Assembly: GCA_951640165.1 (NCBI GenBank)
Contig: OX621261.1
Span: 2,542,001-2,606,000 of the forward strand
DNA: 64,000 nt
Source: Pseudoips prasinana
Taxonomy: Eukaryota > Arthropoda > Insecta > Lepidoptera > Nolidae
Direction of reading: 5' to 3'
In this document: one piece after another, positions 22,391 through 64,000 of the stretch
Layout of the letters: every line of letters starts with the position of its first letter
Numbering within the stretch: position 1 is the first letter of the stretch
The notes under the pieces: generated by a model
Database searches by the model: none
Seen by the model: only the letters and a program-made list of their open reading frames with translations
What the model was told of the DNA's origin: nothing
Made by a program: the position numbers and the translations under genes

Positions 22391-23170
22391 GTGTGTTATT
22401 ATACTTTTGTCGCTTATGTTGTTCAGCTTCTTTTGGGACAGTTCTTGCTTAACCTTAATAATGTATGTTAACCCGTTAGTATCTATTTCAATACTTATTT
22501 ACAAAACAATTATATTTTGTTATAACACACGGGTGTTATTATACTTTTGTCGCTTATGTTGTTCAGCTTCTTTTGGGACAGTTCTTGCTTAACCTTAATA
22601 ATGTATGTTAACCCGTTAGTATCTATTTCAATACTTATTTACAAAACAATTATATTTTGTTATAACACACGGGTGTTATTATACTTTTGTCGCTTATGTT
22701 GTTCAGCTTCTTTTGGGACAGTTCTTGCTTAACCTTAATAATGTATGTTAACCTGTTAGTATCTATTTCAATACTTATTTACAAAACAATTATATTTTGT
22801 TATAACACACGGGTGTTATTATACTTTTGTCGCTTATGTTGTTCAGCTTCTTTTGGGACAGTTCTTGCTTAACCTTAATAATGTATGTTAACCCGTTAGT
22901 ATCTATTTCAATACTTATTTACAAAACAATTATATTTTGTTATAACACACGGGTGTTATTATACTTTTGTCGCTTATGTTGTTCAGCTTCTTTTGGGACA
23001 GTTCTTGCTTAACCTTAATAATGTATGTTAACCCGTTAGTATCTATTTCAATACTTATTTACAAAACAATTATATTTTGTTATAACACACGGGTGTTATT
23101 ATACTTTTGTCGCTTATGTTGTTCAGCTTCTTTTGGGACAGTTCTTGCTTAACCTTAATAATGTATGTAA
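22391..23170. repeat. 140-bp minisatellite, about 5.5 units
   Basis: Units start with GTGTTATTATACTTTTGTCG and include CAGCTTCTTTTGGGACAGTT and TTAACCCGTTAGTATCTATT. The copies at 22391, 22531, 22671, 22811, 22951 and 23091 differ by very few bases. The sixth unit is cut at about 23170 and its remainder lies at 27806-27855, on the far side of the LINE. The 61-codon ORFs repeated every 140 bp are a by-product. Confidence 0.9.
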
Positions 23171-24637: not shown

Positions 24638-24689
24638 GTTATGTTAGAGCCGCAAAGTCAATGTTATTTTGTGCTTTTTTGTATTACAA

Positions 24690-37903: not shown

Positions 37904-39513
37904 TTATTTAGACACCTCGTACACTTCTTCACTAGATGACTGGGACTGTGACTGGGAACTCGCGGATTTTGACTGCGATAATGTTGACCCATTACTGTTT
38001 TCTATTCTGGTGGTCTCATTTCTTCGTTCACTTTGTTCAGAACCAGACTCTGATGCCCTTCGTGATGCTGTACGGCCGTCTCTATCAGTTACAGTTGTAT
38101 CCGAATTTTCTTCGTACTGAGAAGCTGCACCGTCCTTTGTCAGCTTGCGATATTTTCTGTTTTTTCCACCACCAGCATTGCCTTTACCTGCATTACCGGA
38201 TGAATTGGCTCCATTGGATGAACTGTTTGCACTGGATGAACTGCTTGCATCGGATGCACTGTTTTTACTGGATGAACCGTTTGCACTGGATGAACTGCTT
38301 GCACCGGATGCACTGCCTTCACTGAATGAATTGTTTGCACTGGATGAACTGCTTGCATCGGATGCATTGCCTCCACCGGATGTATTGCTTCCACTGGTTG
38401 AACTATTTGCATTGGATGAACTGCTTACATTGGATGCATTGCCTCCACCGGATGTATTGCTTCCACTGCTTGAACTATTTGCACTGGTTGCACTGTTTGC
38501 ACTGGATGAACTGGTTCCACTGAATGAATTACTGTTTCCACTGGATGAACTCTTTCCACTGGATGAACTTCTTGCCGTGGATGAACTACTGCCATTTGAT
38601 GATCCACTTTCACTGGATGAAGTTGATCCCGTTCCAGTATTTGAATTGTTTCTATTAGCTCCTCTATTTGAATTAGATGCTCTTCTTGCACTAGCTACAC
38701 TACTTTCATTAGTTGAACGGGCTTCATTAGCTGATTTGGATCGACTAGTTGATCTGGATCCACTAGTTGAACCGGTTTTGCTAGTTGAATTGGATTCACT
38801 AGTTGAACTGGATCCAGTGAAACGGGACGAATTTTGTTGCGATTGTGTATTTTCACTGCTGCCTCTATTCTGGTTTGAGCTTATATTATTATCATTTGAG
38901 CTACGTCGGTTTGAAATACCATTATTATTGCTACTACCCCTACTATCTCCGTCTGCAGTTTGATTATTTTCGTTCCTGCGCCGACTTCGTTCTTTTTCTT
39001 GGTTTTTGTTCGAATTACTACTTCTATAATTATAAGAACTTGAATTTCCGTTTTGCTGCTCAACGTTGTTTCGTTTGCTGTTGCTGTTGCGGGAAACATT
39101 ACTGTTCTGATTTTCGAATGTACCGCTTTCAGTTGAACTTTGTCCCTCTCTATATTGGGAGTTGGTTGATCCCTGTCCAAAAGTTTTGTCGCCACTTTGA
39201 TTACTTCTTCTCCTATTTTGATTATTCCTTGTTTTTCTATCATTTCTATTTTGGGATTTAACTCTGGTTTCGCTATTTGTGTAATCGTCATAATTATCAT
39301 AATTATAGTCTTGATAACCGTTGTTGTTACTACGATATGACTCGCCTCGGCCATTATTGTTGGTTCTTCCGTTGATATTTCCGTTACTGTTCCAACCGTT
39401 TTGTTTGGCAATATTATAATCGGTATCCGTAGCTGGGTTTACGGCACGATTAAAGTTGTCGCCGTTGCCTCTTGGGATGATATCATTCATATCTCTCTCT
39501 AACGATTGCAAAT
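37904..39513 (-). CDS. terminal giant exon (Ser/Asn-rich repeats, stop)
   Basis: The acceptor is TATTTTTCACAG at 39514; the exon enters in phase 1 and encodes 535 whole codons and TAA. It opens with [20 protein letters not shown], then an Asn/Arg/Gln-rich stretch ([20 protein letters not shown]). It continues with Ser-rich repeats whose basic DNA unit is 15 bp (GSSSS/ANSS-type pentapeptides). A higher-order block of roughly 24-30 residues holds [17 protein letters not shown] variants. The C-terminus is acidic and hydroxylated ([15 protein letters not shown]). Opposite-strand ORFs here are shadows of the repeat. Confidence 0.85.
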
Positions 39514-42500
39514 CTGTGAAAAATATTTTTTTTATTAATCATTAACATCCTATCAGCCAATAACTGTAATTTGTGTCCGTCTATTATATGTGTGTAAAGT
39601 ACCTCGCGACATAGGGATATAAGACTTCAAAGTGCGGCCGTTTTCTTAAAAAAAAAAACTAAACTTCCAGACTCCAGATTTCTAATCAGCCTTTTATAGC
39701 CAGAAATATTCAAGTAAAAGTGACTGGATAGTCTAATATAATTTTGAAATATGATTGGTAAGGTTAAGCAACTAGGCTCGCGTTCAGTCCAGAGATGGGT
39801 GACCGCTAAAGTGGTTTAATTTATGAGCATCCGTGGCTCGGAGGGCACGTTAAGCTGTCGGCCCCGGTTGTCGCCATTACGCAACAGTCGTGAGGCCATT
39901 TCAGAGGCCTAATGGGCGGCTTGAACAACTCCGACACTAGGGCAACCACTGCCCATAAGATACGTGTTGTACTAGTATCATGTCATAAATAAGTTTAAAA
40001 ATAAGGTTAATATAAGCTTACCGATTTCATCTTGGTTGACAATTGAACCGATTTGTCTTAAGCAATCTGAAAAAAGAAAAATAAATTAAAAGATGATGGA
40101 GTGAAGGCAGCTTTTCTAATCGCTTTAAACATTCATCGTTATAATTACTTTATGTCCACTGCTGGACAAAAGTCTCCCCCAAAAATGGGGGTATATATGC
40201 TATAATCGCCACAAAGGCAAAACGAAGAGGCGATAGCAGCTTGATGGTCATGGTTCACAAAAAAAACCGGCAAAGTTCGAGTCGGACTCTCGCTCGAAGC
40301 GTACCATACCAATATCTATAAAAACGAGCAAAAATTCACGTTTGTTGTATGGGAGCCCCCTTAAATATTTATTTTATTTAGTATTCCCTCGGGTCGAGTT
40401 CTACGCCCCCCACGGGATGAGATGGCGTGATGATATTCTGATATTCGCTGCCGTCACCACACAGAAAGAAATTAGTAGGCAAACGAATATTTCAAAGATA
40501 TGTACGTAATGCTGATGCTGACAAATTTATATAATGTACTAGGTTTCGGGGGGGCCTGGAGTGCCAAAATACAGGCCTTGGCTTAGTTTGGACTCCAGAT
40601 CTCCCACATGTTGCAACTTCATACATTTTGTCAACTTTATTTCTTTTATGTTAATATCAAAAAAAAAAAAAAAAAAAAAGATTAAATGTCTACGGCGGCC
40701 AATCTCAATGAAGACTAGCCATTTACACTGGACATATTAAAGTGCACAAGTGTGTGCGCAAACACAGGAGCACTTTCTATTCCATCACTCTCAATATCCG
40801 ATGGGACGCCTAGCGATACGACCGGAAAGAGTTCAAGCACAGAATCAACGGCTGTAATACGTGCTCTCCGAGGCACGGGGGTATCGTAACGCCAACTCCC
40901 AGACTAAGATTTTTTACTTTCAACAGAAATATCCCAAAATTACTTTTGGCCCAACCCGAGGTTTGAACCCAGGACCTAGTTTCTGCGGTAGAACACGCTA
41001 ACGCTAGACCAACGAGGCAGTCCCATAAAATAAAATAAAAAAGGTTTTTATTCACGTAGACTTTCAAAAAGCGCTTGTAAATAGTCAGAACATGTTTGTA
41101 GTAATATAGTTGTATACATTATTATTTCTAGTTACATAGATATTTAGGTACATATTGTATGAAAACATTTATAAAGTTTATTTTATTATAGCATTGATAT
41201 TTAGCTAGCTCGTATCAAGTTATTGTCAAGAGATTATGTTTAATTATCTAGTTTAAGTCTAATATTTTTACTACACACTGTCAATGGTTCTGTCGATATT
41301 AAAGGTATTATTATTATGACGGACCTTGTGTTAATAACGACGGTCGCGCTTTAATGACACCGGATCCAATGCGCCCCAACTGATAAGACCCAGCGAAACA
41401 AACTCAGTGGGTTCATCTACTACCGGTTTCAACACGACCCAGTTGAGACGGTCCGGCGAAACATACTCAAGCGGGCATGAACACGGGATTTGGTCCAATT
41501 AGAGTAATTATTTAGTAGGCAAACACAATATATGCTCGATCGATTGTCTGATATCTATACAAATAAATAAAATTGGAGTGTCTGTTTGTTACATTGCAAT
41601 AACCGTTGTTTACTACATGTATATGAATATATATACGGTCCATACACCAAAATATTTTTTATTAATAATTTTTGTACGTCGTTCTGTTTATTCTGGCTAA
41701 TCTCTGAAGTGGCTGGGCCGATTTTGACGGGACTTTTAGGTGCAGGTATCCAATGTAATAAGGAGTAACTTAGGCTAACCACTTAAGTTGGGAACATAGA
41801 CATGCAGAGTGGTTGATGAGTTTTACTTACACGAAACAACTAAGTCTCCGAGGGCTGGATGGACACTATTCGCGATGGTAACGGTAATAACCAGACCTGT
41901 AAAAAACAACATAAATTAAAATTATTCTTTTATTCTTTTTATCGGGACTAGTCCCTCCCTTTTACCCACCACTGCAACTCCTGTAAGCCAGGATCAACAG
42001 CGGCACACAATGAAATGATACTGAGCGGTGAGGCTCAGGCATGTCCCGGGGAATCGCGACCAATGACTTGGATCCCGCAATGAATTTGATCAGAAAGAAA
42101 AAAGGAGGAGTTAGGAAATGAATAGCTCCAATCCCCTGAGCAAAGCGGGAGACAGAATGATGTAAAGAGTCTATTGCCTCATAATTATAATTGATATAGA
42201 CAGAGAACGTAGGTCGCTGGCTGTTCGCTATAACATGCTGGTCCGCAGGTTTGCACGATGTACAAACTCAGTCAAAATAACGCTATTTAAAGCATACTGC
42301 CAGTCATTCTACACGTGTAGCCTGTGGACCAAATATAGTCAGAGGGCATACAGCGACCTGCGTGTCCAATATAACAACGCGCTTAGGGTATTGCTGGGGA
42401 GGCCGTGGCGGTGCAGTGCGTCAGGGATGTTCGCCGAGACGTGTATTGACGGGTTCGCAGCTATCTATTTATTTATTTATTCAGGACACATACAGTCGTT

Positions 42501-45500
42501 AACAAACAATCTATACAAATAAATAAAATTGGAGTGTCTGTTTGTAATATTGAAATAACCGGTTTTTACTACATAAATATGAATATATATACGATACATA
42601 CAGCAAAATAACTTTTTTTACAATTTTTGTCTGTCTGTCTGTCTGTTTGTTCCGGCTAATCTCTGAAACGGCTGGACCGATTTTGACGGGACTTTTATTG
42701 GCAGGTAGCTGATGTAATAAGGAGTAACTTAGGCTACTATTATTTTAGAAAAAGTCATATATTTTACTAAAAAAAAAAAAAAAAAAACTAATTAACACGC
42801 GGACGAAGTGGCGGGCACAGCTAGTACAATATAAGACCAAATTACAATAAGACCAAAAAGTTCCATTAATTAGTAACGAATAGAAGAACTAAGACACAAA
42901 AGGCGAATACCTACTTAATACAATATAAACAGAAGAAATGAAAATCAATGTCTACACAAATACAAAAACAGAAATAAAAGGCTAACCATTGTTATAGAGG
43001 AAATGTCTGTTGTATCTGTATTTAACCAATACAATACACATTACTTCTACAATATATCTGGTATTATGAATACAAAACAAAACCGTGATTTAGGTACTTA
43101 AAAATCTAGAAGAAACCTTGTAAATTATGTCACCCACTTTCTTCTTCAAACTATCCAGAGACAAAGCAAATATGTCCACATCTTCCAGTAGTTCTATGTA
43201 TTTTCTACATGAACGTCTAATAAATGTGTTTCTAGCGTAATTCGTTCTACATGGTAATATCCGAAAAGTGGTTTTAGAACGGGAGGAGATTCGAGGTACA
43301 TTAATATGATTTTTTTCCAGCAAAGATGCTGAGTCAATTTTATTACTTAATATTTTATCTAACATGCGAAAAAGGTGCGCTTCCTTGATGGCACGTATCC
43401 GTGGCAGCACCAACACTAGCCTAAGCGTGTTTGCAGATAGGTGGGAGTCCCCTATGATGAGGAGATGGATGTAGCTACATGTTTATGTTTAATGTGAGCT
43501 AGTTATTTATGTTTACTAACAATATTTATTTAAGAAATTGTTTACTAACACACTATGGACTTTGTCTGAAATAAATATATTATTATTATTCCAATTTATT
43601 TATTTATAGTTCTTATTTTTAACATATTTATATCTATAAAATTGACACAAAGAATAAAACAATAATACCTATATAAAAAATATGAAAAAATAGAGGTCCT
43701 CCAGCGGCGAGGTTTGACGCCCTAGGCCGCCGGTGGTCAGGGCGACAGAGTAAGGAACCTCCTTACAATGCGTGCCGTTCCCATTATTGCCACTATTTTA
43801 TTTATTATTATTATTATTATTATAAAACGAGAGAATTGCTAAAAGTGTACACTTACCACGAAGGTACACGGTGTAAAGATCGTTCCGACACCATGCGTCA
43901 GGAGAACCTGCCAAGAAAAATTATAAATAAAAACTTGAGAGGTGTCAAGGGACACCCGGAGGGAACGAAGTTATTTCTTATTATTTATTATGTCCAAAAA
44001 ATCTGTATACACTCAACAAAAATAATTGTCGCGATACCCCACTGTTCAATGCGAAATAGAAATGAAAATATCTGGCTTGCTATAAGAGAGAGAGAGACAG
44101 ACAGAGAAACATGCGCACGCCGCACAGCTGCAAAAAGTGTCGTGACAACTTTTCGTAAGAACTTTTTTTTTGAAATAAGATACTATTACAAAGTGTCATC
44201 AAAATCCATTATATGTATTGATTACACCCAGGCTCAGGACAGACAGACATGTCCATGCACACAAATATCTGTCCTGGGTGGGAATCCTCCAGCGTTGATA
44301 GCAAGCCTTTGCCAAATACTCCAACAGGGACGTCAAAAGGAACATCCATTTATTTTTGGAACGAAGTTCCTTGTCGGGCGTTGCGAAAGGGGGACAGACG
44401 GTAAAAATTAAGACGACAGTTGTAACGACACTTTTTGCTATTGTAAGCCGTGCGGCGTGCATGTTTCTCTGTCTGTCTCCCTCTCTCTCTCTTTCTTACA
44501 GAAAGCAAGCCCGATATTTTCGTTTCGTCTTACTATTTCGCATTGAACAGTGTGGTGTTGCGACGATTATTTTGTTGAGTGTATACAGGTTTTTTGTACA
44601 TAATCTATACATATAATAAAATCGTAGTAAAGTCAAAACTGTACATTGAATATTTTTTTAAAATGATACTTGGGGCGTGATCTACAATCGATATCGAAGC
44701 CAAAAATATAGTTTTTAGAATTTTTGTCTGTGTGTCTGTTTGTCTGTATGTATGTCCGGGCTAAACTCAAAAATTACTGCATGGATTTACTTAAAATTTT
44801 GCATGAATATTGCCAGGAGCTCCGGTCAACATATAGGCTACATATTATCACGCTATCACCTACGGGGGAGCAGCTGTGATGATTTATAAAGTTTAACGCG
44901 GGTAAAACCGCGGGGCACAGCTAGTTTATGGTAAAAAGTAACTTCTTTGACAACGCTCAAGTTTTATTATTTATATAGATAAGGATTACTTACGTGCAAA
45001 CAGTTGTGATATTGCGTTAATCTGTTCGATAACAACCTGTTTCGATCCTGGAAAAAGAAAAAAAAAACTTAAATCTTTTTTAAATTTAGAGCCTAAAGAG
45101 CCGGCTTCCTCCCAATCCATATCGGTACCGTAACCACTGTCACATATATCTAAAACAAATAAATAATAATATAAATTTAAACAACTTAAATCTTTTTTAA
45201 ATTTAGAGCCTAAAGAGCTTTTTAGTTAGAGCCTTTAGAACCTTACCACGTTTTTTAAACGCGCCGTCACCGCGCGTTTCTAAAAACCTACAGAGCAGTT
45301 TGCAAGGTACAGGCTGCGTCTCACTTGCGTGCGTATCGCGTCTGTATCGCTACAAACGCGCGTTTAAATAAAAACCGGCCAAGTGCGAGTCGGACACACA
45401 CATGAAGGGTTCCGTAGCAGCAAGTATTTCAGTTGATTAAATGAAAGCAAATTGCGGTTTATGACGTATTAAAAAAAACTACTTGCTAGATCTCGTTCAA

Positions 45501-48500
45501 ACCAATTTTCGTTGTTAGTTTCCATGGTAATGTACATCATATATTTTTTTAGTTTTATCATTCTCTTATTTTAGAAGTTACAGGCGGAGTGCACTTATTT
45601 TACCACTTTGGAAGTGTCTCTCGCAAAAACTATTCAGTTTTGAAAAATATTGTTTAAAAATATTGCCCAGGGGTTCCTTTCACAGCGTAGGGGAGTACTA
45701 AGAAAGAATTTTTGGAAATTCATCCCCTAAGGGGGTAAATTAAAGGATAAAAATTTATTTGCCCTACATGACATACTATTTGAGCATTTCCACCACGTAA
45801 ACAAATAATAAAGGGATCACTGTGAAGCTACAATGTGTTGCTTACCAGAATAGTCATCGCCTAAATAGTTTTTGATTCTTGAGTTATCTTTTACGTTGTA
45901 GAAATCGATAACGTCATCAACAGAGTTCAAATCGCCGGCTTCCTCCCAATCCATATCGGTACCGTAACCACTGTCGCATATATCTAAAACAAATAAATAA
46001 TAATATAAATATCAAGAGACATCATTATTAACAACATGCTTTACTATAAAAGTGCATATATTACAGCTATCCGTGTGTACAATCACCTACCTACAGTTAT
46101 AAAAGCATTAAACGGGAATGAATTTAAAACAAAGCTTAAAAAATGGTTGATAGATAAAGTTTTTTATGATCTACATGAATATTTTGGGAAAAAATATATT
46201 TAGTTTTAGCTATTTTAAGTTTTTAAGCCGCGTTGTTGCGCCTTGTATTGCATATCCGATTTGGGTAGACTGTGAATCTTAATCTAGAAATAAGACCTAA
46301 CATGTACACAGTTTTGCAATAAAGAAATCTTTATCTTTATCTGATCATCATTCACACACGGCCATCTGAATTTAAACTAAGCCGAGCTTGTATTATGAAA
46401 ATCCGATAACTGATATATTAGAAACTAGCTGTGCGCCGCGGTTTTACCCGCGTTAAACTTTCTTAATTATAGCCTATGTGTTAATACAAGGTGACATCAA
46501 ACTCCATGCCAAATTTTATTTAAATCGCTACAGCCGTTTAGACGTGAAGAAGTAACAAACATACACACTCACAAACTTTCACCTTTATAACACATTATTA
46601 CAACCAGACTCAGGACAAACAGACATGTTCATGCACACAAATATCTGTCTTGTAAGGGAATCGAACCCACAACTTGCGGCGTGAAAAGGAAGTATCTACC
46701 AACCACGCCAACAATAAATATTAACAAGAGCCTCATTCAATAACTGCTGTATAAAAAATCCGACCGAACTCCCGTCTATAAAGACGGCAAAAACAGTATG
46801 GGAGGCCCCCGTAATTTTTTTTAATAATAATATCTAGGGACAATGTCACACAGATCATCCTAGCCCCAAACTAAGCAAAGCTTGTACTATGGGTACCAGG
46901 CGACGATATACATACTTATATACATAGATAAATACTTATATACATAGAAAACATCCATGACTCAGAAACAAATATTCGTGCTCATCACACAAATATTTGC
47001 ACTTACAGGGATTCGAACCCAGGACCACCAGCTTCGTTAACTACTACTAATTTAATTTTAATTATTTATTATTAATGTTCTGTGAATTTTTCAAAAGTCT
47101 ACATGTTACTGTCATCTATATTGAACAAAAGTTGTTGGTTATGGTGTTAGCTATCTCGTCCTGCGAGGTTGTTGGTGTTTTACACGTAACCCTAACAACA
47201 CATGAAAGGTTGAACAAGAAAAGTTGTTGGTTATGGTGTTAGGTATCTCGTCCTGCGAGGTTGTTGGTATTTTACACGTAACCCTAACAGTATATGAAAG
47301 GTTGTACAGCAAAAGTTGTTGGTTATGGTGTTAGTCATCTCGTCCTGCGAGGTTTTTGGTGTTTTACAAGTAACCTACAGGTGTATAATGTTATTAGAAA
47401 TGAAGGTTTTACCATTTCCACTCCGGTCTCCCTTAATACAGGCTATGATCTTGAATGCAGCCAAGGTCACTGAAATATTAAAATATATTAGTATAAACAC
47501 TCTAAGAAGAAATCGTTCTCAAGAAAGGTCAGGTCAGAAGTACCCTAACTTAAAATGGATGAAGAGTATAATGAAAGTAAAAGTGGTATGCAAGGATCGC
47601 GACAAATGTGAATCCGTTGTCTCTGCCTACCCCTCTGGGTAAAAAAAATTAAAACTACATTAAAAAGCAAACTGTGTAGTAAGGCATATAGCTAAGTTTA
47701 CTAACAGTTGCCTGAGATCATCGGGAAGTTTGTCGTAGAAGCGTATTTGAGTGGGCTACTAATTTTAATGAAAGAGTTACTATTATTAATGCAAGAGTTA
47801 CTAATTTTAATGAAAGAGTAGAGTAGAGTAGTCTAGTAGTAAAATTGTGAGTGCCCTTAATTTTAAATTAATCAATATAGAAATTACACATAGATACTTA
47901 CTATCCGAATAATAAGATCCCACTGAAAATAATAAAATAATAATTAATAAAGCATTATATTTATTTTTGAATATTTATTAAATCATAGTTTCATTTTTTA
48001 ACTATGATTTCATTAATTGATTTTAGCATTTTAAAAACCAATTTTTCAGATATTTTCAAAATGAATTGTTTAAATTTAATTGCGGGTGGGAATCGAACCC
48101 ACAACCATGGGGTATCAGCCCCCATGTTCGTTAACCGCTCCGCCAAAATAATGACAAAAGTAGCAAAATAATGTTTTAAGTAGTAAAATAATGACAAAAG
48201 TAGTAAAATAATGTTTGAAGTAATAAAATAATGACAAAGGTAGCAAAATAATGTTTGAAGTAGTAAAATAATGACAAAAGTAGAAAAAATATTTTTTAAA
48301 TAGTAAAATAATGTCAATTAATTAAGCATAATTAAAAAAGATAATATTAATAATAATAATTAAGACATTTCGATCGATGAAACAATACTCACAATCGTTG
48401 AGCCATTGGTTCAAAATGCCGCTGCTTGCCTTGGAACCTAAAAACAAAATTTAAATTTAAACAATAGAATAGAATATCTTTATTTGCTTTGAATATAATA

Positions 48501-51500
48501 AATTTAAGTTTCATTTACTGTGTGGTGTGCGCATAGAATTAAAATTATTTATAAATATCAGATTATAAATGATGTATTGTTATAAACTTACTTGTAACAA
48601 ACCAGTCCATCAAATCGTATTCAGTTTGGAATTTACCTGGAATTAAATAATAATAAATTAAAAAAATAATTAAGCTTACAATATCAATTGTTCTTCATGC
48701 AAATCGATTTTATTAACAAATGTTTATCCATTTTTTCCGTGGGTCGTGGGGTACTTTCATCATCAAATCAGCCGCAAGACGTCCACTGCTGGACAAAGGC
48801 CTCCCCCAAAGATCTCCACAGTTGCCGGTCTAACTGCTATCCGCATCCAGCGACTTCCAGCGCCCTCACAAGATCATCGGTCCATCTAGTACTAGGGGGC
48901 CTGCCCACGCTGCGTCTTCCGGTTCGTGGTCGCCATTCGAGTACCTTTCTGCTCCTGTGGCCGTCGGTTCTAATGAGCTATGTGCCACTTGGGTATTCAA
49001 ACCCGGGACATGAAGTGGCGATTCGACTGTCTTAGCCGCTGCACCACACGAGCTGTCAATCTATACATTTTTTTTTTATTTTTTTTTTTTCCGTGACAAA
49101 ATTGAAATTACTGTATTAATTAAGAATCATACAACCCACTTCTATCATTAAATAATTACTCGAATCAAATCATATTTACGTCCTTTGGCCATGGAGGCAT
49201 ATGACCAATCGACGTAAATATGATATATGTCCATTGGGCATACATTGAGTTGCAATTAATATCTACTTTGTTATTTTAAGTACAAGTCCAGGATACCTAA
49301 GTATAGTGACGCGCGGAGGGAAACGAATTTTTAGAACGAAGTTCCTTATCGCGCATTGTGAAAGGGGAAAAATTCTTACGAAAAGTTGTCACGACACTTT
49401 TTGCAGCTGTGCGGCGTGCGCATGTTTCTCTGTCTGTCTCTCTCTCTCTTATAGAAAGAAAGCCAGATATTTACATTTCTATTTAGCATTGAACAGTGTG
49501 GTGTATAACGATTATTTTTGTTGAGTGTACATAATAAATTTGTTTTTGTACATAATAAATAATTTCGTTTCATCCGGATGTCCCTTGACACCTGTCAAGT
49601 GTTTACTTATCAAGCGAAGGAAGAAATGCATAATTACCCATTCTTGAAACGGCGCGACAATATTTCGCAGATCTGTCAACGTCTGCAAAAAGAAATATAT
49701 ATATATATATATAGATAATTTTTTAAGAAAGCGCCCGCACTAGGGAATTTAATCCCTATGTCGCGGGGTACTTTACAAACATATAATAGACGGACACAAA
49801 TTACATCCAGACTCAGAACAACTATTTGTGGGTCACACAAATAGTTGTCCGGCGCGGGACTCGAACCCGCGACACGAAGCGGCGAGGCGACCGTCTTAGC
49901 CGCTGCGCCACAACTGACATAAATAGCACGGATAAAAATATGACTGCACGTAGTTTTTAACTAGCTGCGCCCCGCGGTATACCCACGTTAAATTTTATAA
50001 ATTATCACAGCTCCACCCCCGTAGGTGCTAGCGTGATAATATGTAGCCTATATGTTGACCCGATCTCTTAGTAATATTCATGCAAAATTTTAAGTAAATC
50101 CAAGTAGTACTTTTGAGTTTAGCCCGGACATACATACAGACAAACAGATAAACAGACATAAATTCTAAAAACTATATTTTTGGCTTCGATATCGATTATA
50201 TATCACGCCCCAAGTATCCTTATAAAAAAATATTCAATGTACAGTTTTGTTTTTCCTACGATTTTATTATATGTATAGATAGTCTATGTGTAAATCCAGG
50301 GTGTCAGCTAACTCCATACCAAATTTTATTAAAATCGCTCCAGCCGTTTAGACGTGAAGAAGTAACAAACATGCACACTCACAAATTTTTGCCTTTATAA
50401 TATTAGTGTGAGTGTGATAGTTTTACTAGCTGTGCCCGCGAGTTCTTCCGCATTTTGTAACGACTCTTGTGATTGTTACATCAGAATATCTCTAATATTT
50501 TGTCTCTAGTCGCAAACTTGTATAACATTCACATAAACCATACATATTTCCATACAAATTTTCATCCCCAATTGTTATTTCACACCCTTGAGGGCAAATA
50601 TTTTACAAACTTTTAATTACATATTTATTTAATCAACAGCCTAAAAAATAACTTTCAAAAACAACGATACTTCCATACAACTTTTCATCCCCCATTTCAA
50701 CCCCTTACAACCCTTTAATTGCATTAAAGTGTAGTCTATGTCCTTTCTCAGGCTTTAGACTATTTGTGTAACTATGTGTGTTTTAGCGTGAAAGAACGAC
50801 AGACTGACAGACGGAGTTACTTTCGCATTAATAATATTAGTAAGGATTGGTGTATGTGTAACTATCTCATCATCATCTTTTTATGAAAATCGCGGGGACT
50901 TCTTTATTATTCATATAAATAAAAATGTTTGTCTGTATGTCTTTTATAGAATCGTAAACTATGCATTTGATCATGTGAGGATCTTGAGCAAAGTGTGGTA
51001 CATAAACCCAGAAAGGTTTATGAGTTGATACGACCAATCTTTGAAAGATTAACGCGGGTGAAACCGCGGGGCACTGCAAGTTACAAATAAAAATAGAAAT
51101 AAATACTTACTGATGTTATCAGCTACGAAAGCTGAAAAACAAAACAATAATTAAATACTTGACATGGTTAAAGGTGTAGAGATCTGATTTAAATTTATAA
51201 ATTTTAATTATATCATAAATTTAAATCAAATTTCATAAATTTTAATTTAATTGCAAAAAATTTAAATCAATTTTATAAATTTTAATTTTAATTCAAAAAT
51301 TTAAATTAGATTTTATAAATATAAATCAGATTTATTACATTTAAATTAGATTTCATAATTTAATTCAATTAGGTAGGTTATTTTCGCACTTTCCCTCTCG
51401 TCTATTGGGCTTATATTTATGCTAGTGGTTTTTTAAATATATTTACATAAAATATGCTAATATAATTTATATAATAATAGCATAAAAAAAACATCAAAAT

Positions 51501-54500
51501 GATTTAAACCTGTGCTATAATGTTTTCTGCAAATCATAATTCTGATATACTGGAAACTAGGAAGGCACTAAAAACGAAACACATTAGCGGACCAATTTAC
51601 GAGTTCCTTTGCTAGCAATGCAAAATGATAAAATTAAACGAGCTCACGACGAGTAGTACTCCCTTGAGAATGGTCCTTGGAGGGGCGAAACATGTGTTGG
51701 GTGCCATACTGGCGTATTTAAGTTACTGTCCATATTTCTTCGTTACAGAAATAATAAAAAAAATCTAATTGGATAAAAACTTAAATATTTACCAAAAACT
51801 CCGAAAGGTCTTCGACTTTGAGGCTGGAAATAGAAAAGACAACATTAAAACCTACTTAGGCCCTCATAGCCAGATGCTTTCACTGGTCTGTAAGTGATTG
51901 GCGAAGTTAAGCAACTAGGCTCGCGGTCAGTCCATAGATGGGTGACAGCCAAAGTGGTTTAATTTCTGAGCGTCTCAGTGCTTCGGAGGGCACGTTCAAC
52001 TGTCGGTCCCGGTTGTATTCATTAGACAGCAGTCGTTAAGCCATGTCAGAGGCCTACTGGGCGGCTTGAACAACTCTGACACTAGGATAACGACAACTAA
52101 GTAAGAACCTATATACATATAGCTCTATAAATGTATAGACTACATAATGACAATATGATATTATGTATTTAGAAATATATAAGTATGTGTATCAGTTGAC
52201 TAAAATAAAATAAAAAATAATAAAGGTTATTATTCACGTAGACTTTAAAAAAGCGCTTGTAAATAGTCAGAACATGTTTGTAGTATTATAGTTGTATACA
52301 TTATTATTTCTAGTAACATAGATATTTAGGTACACATTGTATTGATAGTATTAAAACATTAATAAAATTTATTTTATAACAGCAATGATATTTAGCTAGC
52401 TCGTATCAAGTTATTGTCAAGAGATTATGTTTAAGTTTAATTATTTAGTTTAAGTCTAATTATCTGGTTTAAGTCTAATTATCTAGTTTAAGTCTAATTA
52501 TCTAGTTTAAGTTTAATATTTGTAATACATATTGGCAATGGTTCTTTTTTTTATATTTTTTTTTTATAGGGACAAGTCTCTCCCTCTTACCCACCACTGC
52601 AACTCCTGTAAGCCAGGATCAACAGTGGCACACAGTGAAATGACACTGAGCGGTGAGGCTCAGGCATGTCCCGGGGAATGGCTTTAACTGTCTTGGGTCC
52701 CGCAACGAATTTAATCAGAAAGAAAAAAAGGAGGAGTTAGAAATGAATAGTTCCACTTTCCTCCAGAGCAAAGCGGGAGACAGAATGATATAAAGAGGCT
52801 ATAGCCTCATTAAACGAGGGAATTGCAACTAGAGAAGCCAGCTGCAAGAGCACCAAGGATTAATTTAAGGGTCCTAAGTGAGCTGTTATATTTGATTCCA
52901 ATAGTAGGTATGGCAAAAGCGCTTAAACGCACGGAAGTTGTTCCTTGTTGCTACAAGATCCGTATAATAAACTACTACTACTGGCAATGGTTCTGTCTAT
53001 ATTAAGGTGATATTATTATGACGGACCTTATGTTAATAACGACGGTCGCGCTTTAATGCTACCACCGGATCCAATGCGCCCCAACTGACTTGACTTGACT
53101 GACTTGTTGCCATAGCACAGCCTCTGACTAGTTTGGGATCAGATGGCCGTTACATATAATGGTATAATAGTAATATCCTGAGACATTATTCACACACAAA
53201 AAAAAAAAAAAACATTAGACTTAAACTAGATAATTAAACATAATTTCTTGACAATAACTTGATACGAGCTAGCTAAATATCATTGCTATAATAAAATAAA
53301 TTTTATAAATGTTTTCATACAATATGCACCTAAATATCTGTGTTACTAGAAATAATAATGTATACAACTATATTTCTACAAACATGTTCTGACTATTTAC
53401 AAGCGCTTTTTTAAAGTCTACGTGAATAAAACCTTTTTTATTTTATTTTATTTTATTTATTTAACACACGGCCATCTGTTCCTAAACAAAGCAGAGTTTG
53501 TACTATGCGAATCAGACAACTGATATTTTATAACTATAGTAATGTCTTCCCGACCGAATTACGGCCACGGCGGCAAAGTCTCTATAGAGACGAGCCAATT
53601 ACGCAGGACATATTGTAGTGCACAAGTGTGTGCGCAAATATAGGGGCACTTTCTATTCCATCACTCTTATGATCCGATGGGACGACTAGCGACACGACCG
53701 GCAAGCCGTCGGTCCTGTACCGTCAGTTCATGTGCTCTCCGAGGCACGGGGGTATAATACTGGCAACTCGGAGACTTCGGGCTGATACTGAGAAATTTAT
53801 TTTTAGGGAAAAATCCCTAAATCACTTTTTGCTCCAACCCGGGAATTGAACCTAGGACCTCATTATTTGCGGTTGAACACGCTACCGCTAGACCAACGAA
53901 GCAGTCAAATCAACATATCCGATATAATACAATATACTTACAAAATAAGTAAAACATGTTATTACTTTTCTTGTATATACATACTTATATAGATAATTAC
54001 ACCCACACTCAGGACAAACAGGCATAATCGTGGACACATATATCTATCCTGGGTGGGAATCGAACCCACGACATGCGAAGTGAAAGGCAAACATTTACCA
54101 ACACGCCAACGGCCATCCAGCAGAAAATAGTAAGTATAGAAAAGTTTATGAATATGTACATACCTGTCCTCTTCCACCAGGTCCTCTTCTACCAGGTCCT
54201 CTTCCACCAGGTCCTCCTCTACCAGGTTGTCTTCTACCTGGTCCTCCCCAACCAGGTCCTCCTCTACCCGGTCCTCGTCTACCAGGTCCTCTTTGCCCAT
54301 AAGAATTTTCATCTCCATAGTAATCGTCATCGTAATATGCATTGTCCCTATCATAGTCATAATAACTATCGTCGTCACCATTTGAATTTCCTCTATTTCC
54401 ATAATTTGATGAGCTAGAAGCATCAGAACGTGCACTGGATTGGGTTTGACCAGTTTGGCTGCTTGAAGAAGCTTTGCTACTGCTCGAACTGCTTGCTTGA

Positions 54501-57500
54501 TTGGAGCTGGATTGGTCATTACGGCCTCTAGTTGATTGGTTATTCCAGTTTCCATTTGATCCGTCATCATCATTATCTCCATAATTGCCTCTGTCCCTAT
54601 TTGATTGCGATTTTTCTCCTGAATTTGTTCGGGAATTTCTGTTTGTATTTGATTGGGAAGCACTGTTTGACCTTGATTGGGAATCTCCTTCTATATATGA
54701 TCGGGAATCACTGTTTGCATTTGATTGGGAATTACTGTTTTCATTTGATTGGGAATTACTGTTTTCATTTGATTGGGAATTACTGTTTGCATTTGATCGG
54801 GAATTACTGTTTGCATTTGATCGGGAACCTCTGTTTGTATTTGATTGGGAATCACTGTTTGAACTTGATTGGGAATCTCCTTCTGTATTTGATCGGGAAT
54901 TACTGTTTGCATTTGATCGGGAACCTCTGTTTGTATTTGATTGGGAATCACTGTTTGAACTTGATTGGGAATCTCCTTCTGTATTTGATCGGGAATTACT
55001 GTTTGCATTTGATCGGGAATTACTGTTTGCATTTGATTGAGAACTACTTTGTGAACTTGATTGGGTAGTACCGCCTCTGCTACTGCTTTGACTACTACTT
55101 TGACTACTACTATCTGTTTCACTATCTCTGTATGTGTCATCAGCCTTATAATATTTATTGTAATCATCATCAGTACCCCTTCGCAGGACGCCGCCAAAAT
55201 CATAAAAAATAGAGGATTTGCATTCCTTCTTGATTTGTTCCGTTCTGGAGGCGAGGTCTGCAAATAGAATGAAATATATCACACCGTAGCCTAGTTGGTA
55301 GTGCTCCTGCCTACGAAGCTGGTGGTCCTGGGTTCGAATCCCGGTAAGTGCAAATATTTGTGTGATGAGCACGAATATTTGTTTTTGATGGATATTTTCT
55401 ATGTATTTAAGTATTTATCTATCTATATAAGTATATCGTCGTCTGGTACCCATAGTACAAGCTTTGCTTAGTTTGGGGCTAGGATGATCTGTGTGACATT
55501 GTCCCTTGGCATTATTATTATATGTCATTAAAATTCTAAATCACGTCATAAGTATAGTAGAAAATAAATTATAAGGTCCCTGAATCTGAACAGAACCGAT
55601 GTACCCCAGATATATGTAAAAAATAGAAAGAAAGAAAGAGAAAGATATCTATAAATCTATACATATAATAAAATCGTAAGAAAGCCAAAACTGTACATTG
55701 AATATTTTTTTTAAAGGGTACTTGGGTCGTGATCTACAATCGATATTGATGCCAATAATATAGTTTTTAGAATTTTTGTCTGTTTGTCTGTATGTATGTC
55801 CGGGCTAAACTCAAAAAGTATATAATACTCAATACTTACTGAATCCGTATTTTGAGAAGGCCTTAGAGTGATTTTCACAATCTGCAAATTAAAACAGTTA
55901 TTAAGCATAACACTTAGGCATCCATAAGTATATCAATCATACATACATAGGCCTGTTTCCCAGAGGGGTAGGCAGAGACAACGGACTTCCATTTGTCACG
56001 ATCCTTGCATAACTCATTCGCTTCGTTTACTGACATTATATTCTTCACACATGCTCGCCGGTTTAGGGTACTTCTGACCTGACCGCTCTTAAGTACGTCT
56101 CCGATTTGATCAGAGAATGTTCTACGAGGTCTTCCCCTTCCGATTGTACCATTCACACAGGCCAGGTATACTTTTTTGTCAATCTTCTTTCATTCATCCT
56201 TTCTCAATGGCCAAACCATCTCAGCATGCCTTTTTATTAAAAATCTTCTTTTTTTATATAAGAGGTCGCCAAACTAGCAAGTGGGTCACCTGATGGTACG
56301 TGATCACCGCCATGTACACTCGCAACCCCAGAGGACTCGCGAGTACGTTTCCGGCCTTTAAGAGTCAGCAAACAAGTGTTGCTGACCTTCCCCTCCACCA
56401 CAATGAGATCTAGCGACCTCACGCACACGCAGAAACACCAAATTAAAATTATTAATGTTATTATTAAGGAATAATACCTTTCATACAGACAGAACCATTG
56501 ACAATATGTAGTAAAAATATTAGACTTAAACTAGATAATTAAACATAATCTCTTGACAATAACTTGATACGAGCTAGCTAAATATCATTGCTGTAATAAA
56601 ATAAATTTTATAAATGTTTTCATACAATATGTACCTAAATATCTATGTTACTAGAAATAATATCTAATGTATACAACTATATTACTACAAACATATTCTG
56701 ACTATTTACAAGCGCTTTTTTAAAGTCTAAATGAAAAAAAAAATGTCTTCTGTAAGGGGGTACTTCTCAGTCGGGCTGCCCTTTTAATGAACGCTATGCC
56801 CTACCTCTCTTCTGGTTTTGAACTGAAATACTATGTATAAAACAACTTACCACGGAGGATCTGGTTCCCTAGCTTCTGGTGATAACCCTTGCCAATTAAG
56901 TAGAAGATGCCGACAGCTGTAAATGAAAAAAATGGTGAGTGAAGATTCCTGTGCAAGCTTCAGAATCAGAATCAGAATTATTTATTTGCTAAAACATGGT
57001 AATATTGGTGTTACATAAATGACGTGCAAATTTTAATACATGCTTAATAATTTAAATATAATTATTAATTGGAATTAAATTAACTACCTATGTCAACTTG
57101 TCTTCTAGGTAATCTTTTAATTTGTAATAATTTTTAATACGTAACATGTCAGTCAATTGTTTTTTAAATTTTGGTAATGGCAATTCTTTTAAACATTTAG
57201 GCAGGTGATTGTATAATAGGTCTTTACCTATGAAATTGCCGTTTTGTATGAAAAAATTTAAACGAATTGTTTTCATGAATTTTTTTATTTGTATTAATCG
57301 AAGTAATCACCCATGCAATCAATGCATCTTTGCCATCGCAGTGGCAGTTTATTGATGCCCTTCTTAAAGAAATCAGCTGGACGGGAGGCAACAAATTCTT
57401 CAAAGGCATTTTGTACTGCCTCTCGGGTATTGAATTTTTTTCCCGCCAAGAAGTTATCCAAATTCTGGAAAAAGTAGTAGTCTGTAGGCGCAAGGTCTGG

Positions 57501-60500
57501 TGAGTAGGGCGGATGACGGAGAGCTTCCAACCCCAGTTCTTGCAACTTGGAGACCGTCTGCTGTGCAGTATGAGGTCGCACGTTGTCGTGCAGGAGCAGC
57601 GGAGACGAGCGATTGACCAATGCTGGTTGGAGATGCGCCAGCTTCTCCATCATTGTGCTCAGTTCTTCACAGTACACATCTGCAGTAATGCTCACCCCGT
57701 TTGGTAAGAAGCTGTGATGAATCACACCGGCGCTAGACCACCAAACAGTGACCATCACTTTTCTAGGGGTAAGTTTTCGTTTAGGGCATTGTTTAGGTGC
57801 TGAACCAGGATCCAACCAACTTGCTGAGCGCTTGCGGTTATCAAACAGAATCCATTTTTCATCGCAGGTAACAATGCGGTTCAAAATTCCTTCATTTGTG
57901 TGTCTGTTGAGCAGTGCAAGGCACGTCTCGACGCGTACTTCGCGCTGGCGATCATTGAGTTCGTGGGGCACCCATTTGTCAAGCTTTTTTACCTTGCCAA
58001 TTTGACGCAAATGGACCAATATTGTTTTGACGCTAACGTCGAAAGCTGCTGCTAATTCAGCCGTAGATTGTGTATCATCAGCTTCCACAACCGCCTTTAA
58101 TTCGTCATTGTCGACCAAAGTCTTCGGACGACCGCGAGGTTCATTTTTCAGGTCGAAATTTCCAGAACGGAAGCGAGCAAACCAATAACAGGTGGTGCGT
58201 TGGTTTGTAGTGTTAGCTCCGTAAACGTCGTTGATGTTGCGTGCCGCTTGTGCCGCGTTGCTGCCACGACGGTACTCATATTCCATAATTACTCGAATTT
58301 TTAACGTATCCATGATGACGAAAAAGATTGAAATGCGATGAAAATGTAACACTAATCAATAAAGAAATGACTACTTTTGGAAAAAAGAATCCATGTTTTT
58401 AAAATAAAATTAATTTGAAATTAGAATTCTTAGCCAAACAAAAATTATTTTGATTTGAAATGGCCAGTACTGCAGAACGGCAATTTCATAGGTAAAGACC
58501 TAATATTATTATAGACATGCAGTAGACATTTCTTTTAAAAAGTTCCAACCGTATTTGCGGTAAGCGCCATCTGTCTCTGTGTCTTGTACGACTACCTTCC
58601 ATATCACCCATGGTCTCAAATAATTTTGAGTGCTTTTTCACAAAGAGGCATATTTCTAAAATATATATACAGGGTAATGTTAGTATTTTAAGGTCTTGAA
58701 AGAGTGGCTTACAACTTTCAAGAAAATCTGCTCCTGTTATTGCTCGGATGCATTTTTTTTTAGCTTTAAACACCTGGTCAACATCGACTGAGTTGCCCCA
58801 TATAATAATTCCATATCGCAGTATGGACGAGCTTGCCCACTTGGTGTACCAATTACAACAGATACTGGGTTCAAATCATGGGTCGACAAAAAAATTGATT
58901 TTAATTTTTAACACGCTTTTATTAGCTTCACTTCTATGTAAAGAAAATCTTGGAATCTTAATTTGACCCACTTCCTGGTCTCCGATTAGGATGAAATTTT
59001 GCACACACGAGACAGTTCTGATGACAATACATGACTAGCTAAGAAACGTCATTACAAATCCAATATGGCGGCCTCCCCAAGATGGCGGACTGGCTGTTTG
59101 AAATCCACCCAACAGGCAGAACATGGATGTACGTTATTTTATTATCAATATCACCTGTATTCATAACCTATGTTCACAAAATAAATTTGATTTGATTTGA
59201 CATTATTTCGTAATGTAACTTACAAAATTCAAAAACGATCTGATACAGTTTATGGCATTATATATTTTATGCCTAATTAATTAATTTTATTTATTTTTAT
59301 ATTATTTGACCTGTGTAATTTTATTTTATTAATTGAATTTATTAATGACTTTTATATCTTTAGGTTTAGAATTGTGACATTTTATATTCATGCAGTAAAG
59401 TCACGTGACATATTTGTTAAATCCAGTTGCATGCCCTAACCGGCTGGACATATCGATACAAACATTTCACTAACATCTTGATATATGTATTATTTATATT
59501 CGTTCGCAATTAATAAATTGAATTGTATAGTTCTCAGAAAAACGCTGTTGCCCGTTCACTGGTAGGTATTCCATCGGACGATTTCTACGCCCCCCACAGG
59601 ATGAGATGGGGTGATGATATACTTTGCCGTCACTACATAGATTAGGACAGTTCACGGGATGAAAAATACTCACAATCGCAGTAGATCGAGTTGAAGTCTT
59701 CGTTGGACCAAGTCTTTCCAGCATTTCCTGCAGAAAATAAAAATGTGATTATTGAAATGAGAGAATCTTTAGCGGCGTTGTGCACTTTTTTGGGATAGGT
59801 AAAAAATGTTAAACTCGCGTCAGGACTCGTGACCTGATCGAAAATGCGTAAGACGGAGGGTCTTTTTTGACATTTTCACAGATGATGTATTTCTGTTGCC
59901 GCTATAACAACAAATACTAAAAAACAAAATAAAATAAATATTTAAGAGGGCTCCCATACAACAAACGTGAATTTTTTGCTCGTTTTTATAGATGAATGGT
60001 AATGGAACCCTTCGTGCGCCCGACTCGCACTTGGCCGTTTTTATTTTTCTTATACATCATGACCAATAATCACCGCATAAAATATGAATTTATTAATATT
60101 TTAAAATATTACTTACTTTCAACCAGCTGACTGATCCTGTATATGTATCGGGCCAAAAACTGTTTGTTCTCTGGAAAATTAATAAATATATGAGTTATTT
60201 TATCTGTATTGCGGAGGTTAGATTGAGGGTAAAAACGGATCCATACTGTTCTAGATGCTACTGAATATCATAATACCTATCAAGTTAACACATAAAAAAA
60301 ATAAAAATAAAAAAAATCTAGGTAACTTTTTTTTAATTTATTTTTTTACGTCAGAGGTAAACGAGCAAGTGGGTCACCTGATGGTAAGTGATCACCGCCG
60401 CCCATGGACACTCGCGACACCAGAGGAGTCGCGGGTGCGTTGCCGGCCTTTAAAGGTCTCTGCACACAGCGGGCGGGGCGTGGCGGGGCGCGGCGTGACC

Positions 60501-63500
60501 GGGCGGCGACGCTGCGCTGGCGCGGCGGCAGCCTTCACACTGCGGGCGCGATCACGTCCCGTCCCGCCGCACCCATTCACGTCGACCGTATTTTAAGAAC
60601 AGTGTTTCTATACTGCCTATGGCCCAAATCGTACAAACATACGTGAGCACGAACACATTCGACTAATTTTTCGACATCCATTTTTGTAAAACGATACAAA
60701 ATCACATTCGCGCTCCGTACCGTCCGACGCGGCGCCCGTCCCCGCCGCTTCTGACTTGTATTCCCGCTCGGCGCGGCGGCGGCGTCGCTCGACGGTTACC
60801 GTCGCGCCGAGCGGGACGGCTCTGTGTGGCGTCGTCCGTATTATCTAGTACATTACAACTCCTCAGTGTCGCGTCGCCGTCCCGTCCCGCCGCGCCCCGC
60901 CCGCTGTGTGCAGAGACCTTAAGAGTCAGCAAACAAGTGTTGCTGACCCTTCCCCCCCACCCCGATGAGCTCTGGCGACCTTACTCACACTCAGAAACAC
61001 AACATTAAATTATCAATGTTATTATTAAGTAATGTCTTCTGTAAGGTGGAGGTACTTCCCCAGTCGGGCTGCTCTTCGAACGAATGAATGCTGTGCCCTA
61101 CCTCTCTTAAAACTAAGAAAATTCATGAAAATCTTGGGTCGTCGGCGTCATGTTGAGATGTTACTCATCACTACTTATTTGCTCCTCCTCTGTTTGTCCC
61201 GCCAAAGGAAAAATTACCTCCGGGACATAATTTGCCATGGCCAACCTGGAGGACTCTTAATAGACTATCTGCCCAGGGGCACTACCGGCTAAGTCGCCGA
61301 ACCTCGTTTTTGTAAATGGCGTTCAAATAAATAAATGTTAAACATGACTTCATCAATCGTTAAATCGGCTTCCATGATCACATGTGACGTCATAAACGGT
61401 CCGGAATCGATTGTCAATGTTGAATCCGATTTAACGATTGATTAAGTCATTTTTAACCTTTATTTATTTGAACGCTATTCACGAAATCGATGTTCGGCGA
61501 CTTAGCCGATAGAGCCCCAGATTAGTAGATCCAAAGAAAACATGTGCTAATGGGGTTACATTCCCAGATCATAAAACATCTACGAGTGCGGCGTGTCAAC
61601 CCAAAGTATGGCATATTTAACTGATTGTCCCTCTTGTCCAGTCTCTTGTTCCCTTCAGGACTTGTATGACGCTTCAGCCAAAGCGATCAGCGTTGCACAA
61701 TTTTGGGAAGATAAATCTAATTCTTGCCATCGACACGATAAGAACTCAAAGTCAAAGTCAAAATCATTTATTCCATAAAATTTAACATTTATGTGGAATC
61801 GTCATATTTTTTTACCCTACCGTGCAGTGCATGACGTGGCAGCCACTGAGAAACACTACCAGAAAACTCAGTAGGAATCCTTTTTTAAAATAAAATATAC
61901 TTAAGATTAATTACAATCATATGTGTTGACTCAGAACAACTCAATCCCAAGCACTTTATCACTTAAATAATCAGAAATTTTGTAATATGCCCTGCTACAC
62001 ACACAATATGGCTTTAATAATTCTTTTAAACTTATTCGTAGATAATTCTCTAATATCATTGGGAAGTTTGTTATAGAATCTTATAAGAAGAAGAAGAAGA
62101 TCACTACTCACCATCGAGACTATTGACATCGCCCTTGAACAAGGCCTTGAACTTCTGTGTCGCAGTACCAAACTGGTAAAAGGAAGAGATGTCCGCTGCC
62201 GTCTCGAGTTTACCTCCGTAGCGTGGCCAGCCGTAGTTGCTTCCATAGTCAGCATTGCAAAGGTCTGAAAACATAAATAATTATATCTATATCCTACTAG
62301 AAATTCGACCGAGGAAATTCTACCATCCCTGAACAAACGCCTATCTCGCAGTCTACTACAGGTGATAGGCACAATCACCGGACACTGCACACTAAACAAA
62401 CACCTCTTCAAGATTGGCGTCACAGACAGCCCCTTGTGCAAAGATGCATTGAATTTGAAGAAACACCGGCACACGTACTGCTACACTGCAATAGCGTGGC
62501 CAGCCAACGGGCAAAGTTCCTAAACGATCCGAAGACACTGCAGGAAGTACTCAAGCCAAGCTTTCGAGGCCTCTTGGACTTCTGGATGGAATTAAAATGG
62601 TTTAAGTAGCCAAATAAGTTCACGTACAATGGCCCAATTAGGAGGCTAAGTGCGGAAACCAATCGCTCAACTAACTAAACTAACTATCCTACTAGAAGGT
62701 TCTCGAGTGGCGACCACGAACCGGAAGACGCAGCGTGGGCCCCCTACAAGATGGACCGATGATCTTGCGAGGGTTGTTGGAAGTCTCTAGATCGAAAGGC
62801 TGGCAATTGTGGAGATTTTTGGGGGAGGCCTTTGTCCAGCAGTGGACGTCTTTTGGCTGATATGATGATGATTATGATATACTACTAATATTATAAACGC
62901 GAAAGTTTGTAAGTATGGATGGATGTTTGTTACTCTTTCACGTAAAAACTACTGCATGGATTTTATTGTAACTTTACAATAATATAGCTTATACATCAGA
63001 ATAACCCATAGGCTACAATTTATAAGATATTGTGTGAATTGTCCAAAATATGACGAGAAGTGTCAAATAAGTAGGAAAAAATCTACCATCTGCGTGCTAT
63101 TCCGGCGTGCACTGCCAAAACCGCTAGAGGTACACATCCAACTAATATTATAAATGCGAAAGTTTGTCAGTATAGATGTATGGATGTATGTTTGTTACTC
63201 TTTTACGCCAAAACTACTTTAACGCGGGTGTAACCGCGGGGCATTACTGGTACATAATAATAAAATCGTAGGAAAGTCAAAACTGTGCATTGTATATTTT
63301 TTTTTAAAGATACTTGGGGCGTGATTTTAAATCGATATCGAAGCCAAAAATATAGTTCTTAGAATTTTTCGCTGTTTGTCTGTATGTATGTCCGGGCTGA
63401 ACTCAAAAAGTACTGTATGGGTTTACTTCAAATTTTGCATGAATATTACTAAGAGGTCGGTTCAACATATAGGTGATAATATAAACATATTATCACGCTA

Positions 63501-64000: not shown

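Follow-up and report, generated by a model that had tools for sequence, protein, structure and literature searches.

Exon anatomy of the locus

The window, a stretch of 64,000 nucleotides, covers positions 2542001-2606000 of the chromosomal sequence C27, and its coordinates are used throughout and counted on beyond 64000. Two giant exons, A (39513-37904) and B (55257-54164), are seen as long open frames on the minus strand in the ORF reading, as an earlier note on this DNA had reported, and a splice-site scan found small exons between and upstream of them on the same strand. As the candidate gene overruns the right end of the window, flanking chromosome was added (228 kb in all), and window and flanks were scanned for acceptor-to-donor segments open in one phase, using splice-site weights set by hand from general knowledge of insect introns. 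The final exons were picked from the scan candidates by eye, partly guided by the symmetry of two exon cassettes, named D1 and D2.

The resulting model contains 29 exons and 4,542 nt, which correspond to 1,513 codons and a stop, and runs from ATG to TAA with no internal stop. Nineteen exons lie wholly within the window (3,707 bp, by arithmetic 1,234 sense codons) and ten more are found at its right end: nine entirely beyond 64000 and one (64004-63933) straddling it. The earlier note had described a gene of 19 exons, with micro-exons of 21-153 bp and one stop-free frame of 1,233 codons. Our model recovered the same number of exons inside the window, the same size range and a single open frame, although 19 does not hold as the total of the gene, which rises to 29 with the flanking chromosome.

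All exons are on the minus strand, and their order shows a signal peptide, a Gly-rich block, D1, a Ser/Asn and GPGR block, D2 and a Ser/Asn block. The first exon, e1 (76082-76047, phase 0), contains the ATG, encodes MVSAKILVLSAL and is the sole TATA-flagged entry among the 16 first-exon candidates listed between 73.3 and 90 kb; the motif TATATAA is located at 76170, 88 bp above the ATG. The Gly-rich exon e2 (73262-73010) begins in phase 0 with LSYAASLPHHG, and a signal-peptide-like start, MVSAKILVLSAL|LSYAASLPHHG, judged by eye, is thus split over e1 and e2. The product had been proposed to be secreted, with a signal peptide to be sought past 64000, and e1 provides a good candidate for it. A second Gly-rich exon, e3 (72349-72078), is followed by the adapter e4 (69085-69064).

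Cassette D1 is composed of the micro-exons m1a (68518-68495, 24 bp), m1b (67424-67380, 45 bp), m1c (66166-66122, 45 bp), m1d (65295-65251, 45 bp), m1e (65147-65127, 21 bp), m1f (64004-63933, 72 bp), m1g (62112-62264, 153 bp), m1h (60117-60170, 54 bp), m1i (59674-59727, 54 bp), m1j (56851-56916, 66 bp) and m1k (55840-55881, 42 bp); the sixth of them, m1f, is the exon that crosses the end of the window. Giant exon B encodes the end of D1, Ser/Asn/Gln repeats, a Tyr/Asp-rich stretch and GPGR repeats, and is followed by the adapter e5 (51793-51823, 31 bp). Cassette D2 is composed of m2a (51111-51131, 21 bp), m2b (49638-49682, 45 bp), m2c (48592-48636, 45 bp), m2d (48393-48437, 45 bp), m2e (47902-47922, 21 bp), m2f (46704-46775, 72 bp), m2g (45846-45983, 138 bp), m2h (44994-45047, 54 bp), m2i (43857-43907, 51 bp), m2j (41831-41896, 66 bp) and m2k (40022-40066, 45 bp). 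Giant terminal exon A encodes the end of D2, an Asn/Arg-rich and Ser/Asn-repeat block and the stop codon TAA (37904-37906). Neither AATAAA nor ATTAAA is present within 904 bases past the stop; the variant AATATA is found 139 bases downstream. Tandem repeats are present in both giant exons, in agreement with the two homogenised low-complexity blocks of the earlier note, which had overlooked the third, Gly-rich block.

Directly upstream of m2h, a 77-bp duplicate of the start of m2g, including its acceptor, is found at 45176-45100 with 98.7% identity, and the segment 45149-44994 is open and could be an alternative exon.

Controls of the exon chain

A chance origin of the chain had been considered very unlikely, and frame, random-segment and chain controls agree with this. 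Taken together, the 22 cassette exons and the two adapters (24 small exons, 1,277 bp) show no stop in the chosen frame and 12 and 22 stops in the other frames, while random intron segments of the same lengths were open in a mean of 9.8 and a maximum of 17 of 24 cases (2,000 draws). Their GC content is 44.9%, against 36.5% in the introns. The best exon-chain scores were 31.1 in the D1 region and 32.6 in the D2 region; dinucleotide shuffles (40 per region) reached maxima of 12.6 and 9.0, and the opposite strands 11.7 and 3.4, respectively. When the flanks were divided into 30 strand-bins of 12.5 kb, 28 had chain scores of 15.9 or less and the other two scored 26.7 and 27.5: the first contains lipase-like exons and the other is the minus strand at 127-139.5 kb. 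The chain-score output consists of a score and an exon number (9 and 10), without the identity of the exons chained.

Splice sites of the 28 introns score at least 3 at 27 acceptors and 20 donors, and random sites reach that score at 4.2% of 332 AG and 1.5% of 269 GT, a comparison which is descriptive only since the splice sites had been selected. Since sites resembling splice signals are frequent and the choice of exons was made by eye, the micro-exon chain might have been assembled by chance around the two low-complexity frames; this is contradicted by the frame and chain tests and by the duplication test described below, which makes it extremely improbable. The openness of the small exons exceeds chance, and the exon chain is real and larger than first reported.

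Duplication of the D1/D2 cassette

The 22 cassette exons are all phase 1-1 in the model, and seven of the 11 D1/D2 exon pairs are equal in length (permutation p 7e-5). The summed difference in exon length gives a permutation p of 5e-6; both values are somewhat too good, because some exons were chosen with the help of cassette symmetry, notably by omission of 47469-47413. Comparison of the sequences is less affected by this choice. The exon-wise alignment of D1 and D2 scores 106, with best scores of -43 for within-exon shuffles and -57 for whole-domain shuffles, and the free local alignment scores 124, with a best shuffle of 62 (n=2,000 in each test). Identity in the alignment is 23%. The pair m1f/m2f matches poorly (score -19) and has weak donors in both copies, making it the least certain exon of the cassette, and the pair m1k/m2k also has a negative score (-12). 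D1 and D2 look like the outcome of an old duplication of the whole 11-micro-exon cassette, and this similarity is the strongest evidence for the model.

Pfam gave no match for D1 or D2 up to E 5, nor for giant exons A and B up to E 1. NCBIfam gave one chance-level match for D1 (MerC, E 0.08) and none for D2; the PDB gave none for D1 at E 10 and one chance-level match for a D1/D2 profile (eS17, E 0.29). A 4-kb piece compared with phage records had no match, which is uninformative. The statement of the earlier note that the compact parts match nothing nameable stands for Pfam and the PDB; what it overlooked is that one domain cassette occurs twice in these parts. When 161 residues of D1 were searched against the own genome (1.126 Gb) at E 0.001, the three matches were all to exons of the present gene, and since this query missed D2 there may be distant paralogues as well.

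The junction between block B and D2

Exon B ends in phase 0 with a strong donor and m2a requires phase 1; left unspliced, exon B would run into an in-frame stop at 54146. The only phase 0-to-1 adapter candidate scoring at least 4 in the interval between B and m2a is e5, with a score of 7.0 that is reached by 18 of 124 control 3-kb bins. From the layout at D2 (low-complexity exon, adapter, cassette), the same was expected before D1, and Gly-rich exons that end in phase 0 were found there, together with e4. The predicted e4 scores 13.6, the best of three adapter candidates between the Gly-rich exons and m1a, and none of the 124 control bins reaches this value (maximum 10.9). Acceptance of e5 is based on this analogy and on the presence of only three weak first-exon candidates in the interval. 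Homology of the adapters was not borne out, as e5 shows no significant similarity to the combined e4 and m1a (p 0.20), and the junction through e5 is the weakest link of the model.

Two tandem paralogous genes for secreted proteins, each with its own signal peptide, one domain and a terminal low-complexity exon, were our first reading of the locus. Gene 1 would stop at 54146 in exon B, and gene 2 would start between 54 and 51 kb and end with exon A. The in-frame stop only a few codons past the exon B donor, the resemblance by eye of residues in m1a (VLA) and m2a (FVA) to signal-peptide ends and the unexceptional rank of e5 among the control bins fit such an arrangement. It was dropped in view of the strong phase-0 donor of exon B, the exact phase 0-to-1 step given by e5 and the score of e4 above all controls: a very strong adapter at the homologous place before m1a makes it unlikely that m1a is a signal-peptide exon, and the three first-exon candidates between 54150 and 51131 are all weak. 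We consider two genes unlikely, and less likely than one, and the single gene is used below.

Partial copies and genomic neighbourhood

A partial inverted copy of the gene is found on the plus strand at about 107.3-124 kb (107319-124000), where fragments of e1, B, e5 and A follow one another as in the gene. This copy no longer has the TATA box or the e1 donor, and the frame of its exon A is broken; the micro-exons of D1 and D2 were not found in it. Alignment with the main exon A shows one synonymous and 11 non-synonymous changes in 82 aligned codons, and since the inverted copy bears no sign of constraint, it gives no support for the main gene from selection. On these sequence features, it is taken for a decaying duplicate. 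The main copy might itself be a decaying gene, given its transposon-filled introns and the decayed partial copy nearby. However, its 29 exons are all open in one frame and it retains splice sites, TATA box and start codon, whereas the inverted copy has lost the TATA box, the first donor and the exon A frame, which makes decay of the main copy very unlikely.

Another copy of the Gly-rich exon e2 and its flanks, about 83% identical, is located on the plus strand at 149302-149787. Among the mobile elements, a full-length-looking mariner/Mos1-type transposase frame of 353 residues (PF01359, PF17906) lies in the intron between m1i and m1j (57297-58355, minus strand), and a Tc1-like transposase frame of 357 residues (PF13358, PF01498) is found just downstream of the gene (35406-36476, plus strand). 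Further away, a LINE encodes endonuclease and reverse transcriptase domains in a frame of 975 residues (24648-27572, plus strand), and a tandem array at 22393-23168 contains 5.5 copies of a 140-bp unit with 99% matches. The nearest other recognised host gene is lipase-like, with exons in the left flank at -35783 to -25441 on the plus strand (PF00151, E 3.3e-5, slightly below the curated cut-off).

Predicted product and its possible function

Residues 1-187 of the product contain the signal peptide and the Gly block (44% Gly, no Cys), residues 188-421 e4 and D1 (234 residues, 7 Cys), residues 422-766 block B (27% Ser, 15% Asn, no Cys), residues 767-990 e5 and D2 (224 residues, 5 Cys) and residues 991-1513 block A (523 residues, 29% Ser, 17% Asn, no Cys). 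Ser accounts for 21% of the whole, and Cys is confined to the ranges that hold D1 and D2. Blocks B and A are hydrophilic (GRAVY -1.91 and -1.60) and the Gly-rich head has a GRAVY of 0.35. Against 400 shuffles, the hydrophobic moment at 100 degrees is raised in both domains (z 3.6 for D1, 2.5 for D2), which points to amphipathic helices; at 170 degrees neither domain shows an excess.

The locus probably harbours one minus-strand gene of 29 exons and about 38 kb. Its product would be a modular, secreted, silk- or glue-like protein, 1,513 residues long, with the duplicated domains D1 and D2 of about 220-230 residues each. We infer that these exons are transcribed into a single transcript. The signal peptide would direct the chain into a gland lumen, where the protein may be secreted as a viscous coat or glue. 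The long hydrophilic Ser/Asn blocks would keep the chain soluble and hydrated, the acidic Tyr/Asp and basic GPGR stretches could pair, and the Gly-rich head would contribute a more hydrophobic segment. The helix-rich, Cys-containing D1 and D2 are the sole possible sites of disulphides, which would make them natural assembly nodes, and they may act as folded assembly or cross-linking nodes. The outcome would be an adhesive chain that stays soluble and forms gels, as has been suggested for moth silk mucins and adhesive sericins.

More tentatively, D1/D2 could represent a folded domain of moth silk or glue proteins that is fast-evolving and so far undescribed. It would have spread through duplication of a cassette of 11 micro-exons, all phase 1, and the protein would be a natural block copolymer in which the two nodes alternate with a Gly block, a Ser/Asn/GPGR block and a Ser/Asn block. 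We regard this as a possibility short of an even chance. A duplicated domain of this length, free of repeats and with exon boundaries that correspond between the copies, could be aligned, searched for and dated. If this reading of the domain is true, it offers a handle for tracing the ancestry of silk-coat genes, which are hard to relate across species because, according to PMC9684489, sericin and mucin repeats are not reliably alignable between species. Should D1 and D2 serve as cross-linking nodes, the gene would also offer a natural blueprint for a block copolymer that forms gels.

Gly-rich and Ser/Asn-rich blocks are found in many secreted insect materials. The gene could be real and encode another extracellular structural protein, such as an egg glue, a salivary mucin, or a cuticle or eggshell protein, as its composition and layout do not point to one particular gland. 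However, moth silk-coat genes are described in PMC5124675 and PMC9684489 as combining very many small exons with giant exons of low complexity and a signal peptide split over the first two exons, and D1, D2 and the giant exons are without a Pfam match, so that no chitin-binding or cuticle family is seen. A non-silk product is considered unlikely.

Comparison with known silk proteins

The fibroin light chain (PF05849) is a silk protein with cysteines and a length similar to one D domain, and D1/D2 gave a weak lead to it in profile comparison (probability 1.8%, E 0.027). This candidate was rejected: depending on domain and parameters, 43-257 of 1,000 shuffles reach the D1/D2 scores; PF05849 searched against the own genome (E 10) matched 18 times, always on the sequence C15 and never on C27, where the present gene is located; and the fibroin light chain exons of this genome are phase 1 to 0 and 0 to 0, whereas D1/D2 exons are all 1 to 1. 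The 18 matches, 13 of them over the cut-off, form about five groups along 90 kb on both strands (C15:12632174-12722411), an apparent tandem gene array with shared exon phases. The presence of these light chains indicates that the genome is probably that of a moth, or else of a caddisfly.

Zonadhesin-like silk proteins have TIL/EGF domains and 12-15% Cys, whereas the present product contains 12 Cys in total, and neither its two domains nor the giant exons A and B match a Pfam family. Searches of the open-licence literature found no sericin with microexons in Lepidoptera and no novel Gly- and Ser-rich moth silk gene, and among papers on short exons and exon-intron structure of silk genes, no title or opening part of an abstract describes such a gene.

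The product had been called sericin-like, and its layout and composition fit: blocks B and A show the hydrophilic, repetitive, Ser-rich character of sericins and silk-coat proteins in the broad sense. The C-terminal cysteine motifs do not. PMC9684489 and PMC9745057 describe a CXCX-type motif close to the C-terminus of Ser1-like proteins, and a three-cysteine motif in mucin-1-like proteins (PMC9684489), near the C-terminus (PMC9745057). Both are absent here, with zero Cys in the last 523 residues, which are block A.

Bombyx Ser4 is located on chromosome 11. An ortholog of Bombyx sericin 4 or sericin 2, diverged past easy recognition, is a possible though tentative identity for the gene, and overlaps our best explanation. 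The earlier note saw here its best candidate for an undescribed gene or system; it is chiefly this possible orthology that keeps us from using the word undescribed without reserve. Gene prediction broke the 34 exons of Ser4 up into three models (PMC8228281). The 13 exons of Ser2 range from 28 to 2,574 bp, and its signal peptide is encoded by exons 1-2 (PMC5124675). Ser2, Ser4 and Ser5 are found chiefly in non-cocoon, adhesive silk (PMC12108825). According to one database paper, Bombyx sericins have no orthologs among the further species that it compared (PMC7918157). Like Bombyx sericin 4, a gene of this kind is likely to be fragmented by automatic annotation.

Compared by description only, Ser4 likewise has very many exons (34, against 29 here) and is an adhesive non-cocoon sericin, and Ser2 likewise shows small exons beside a giant one and a signal peptide on the first two exons, with fewer exons (13) than the present gene. 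YC-Muc1 of Yponomeuta cagnagella, according to PMC9684489, has 32 exons, 22% Ser and a tendency to duplicate whole exons. Its figures are close to the 29 exons and 21% Ser found here, and both genes appear to have grown by exon duplication; however, YC-Muc1 duplicates whole exons, whereas the present gene would have duplicated a whole 11-exon cassette, once. By layout, the gene would belong with Ser4, Ser2 and Muc1.
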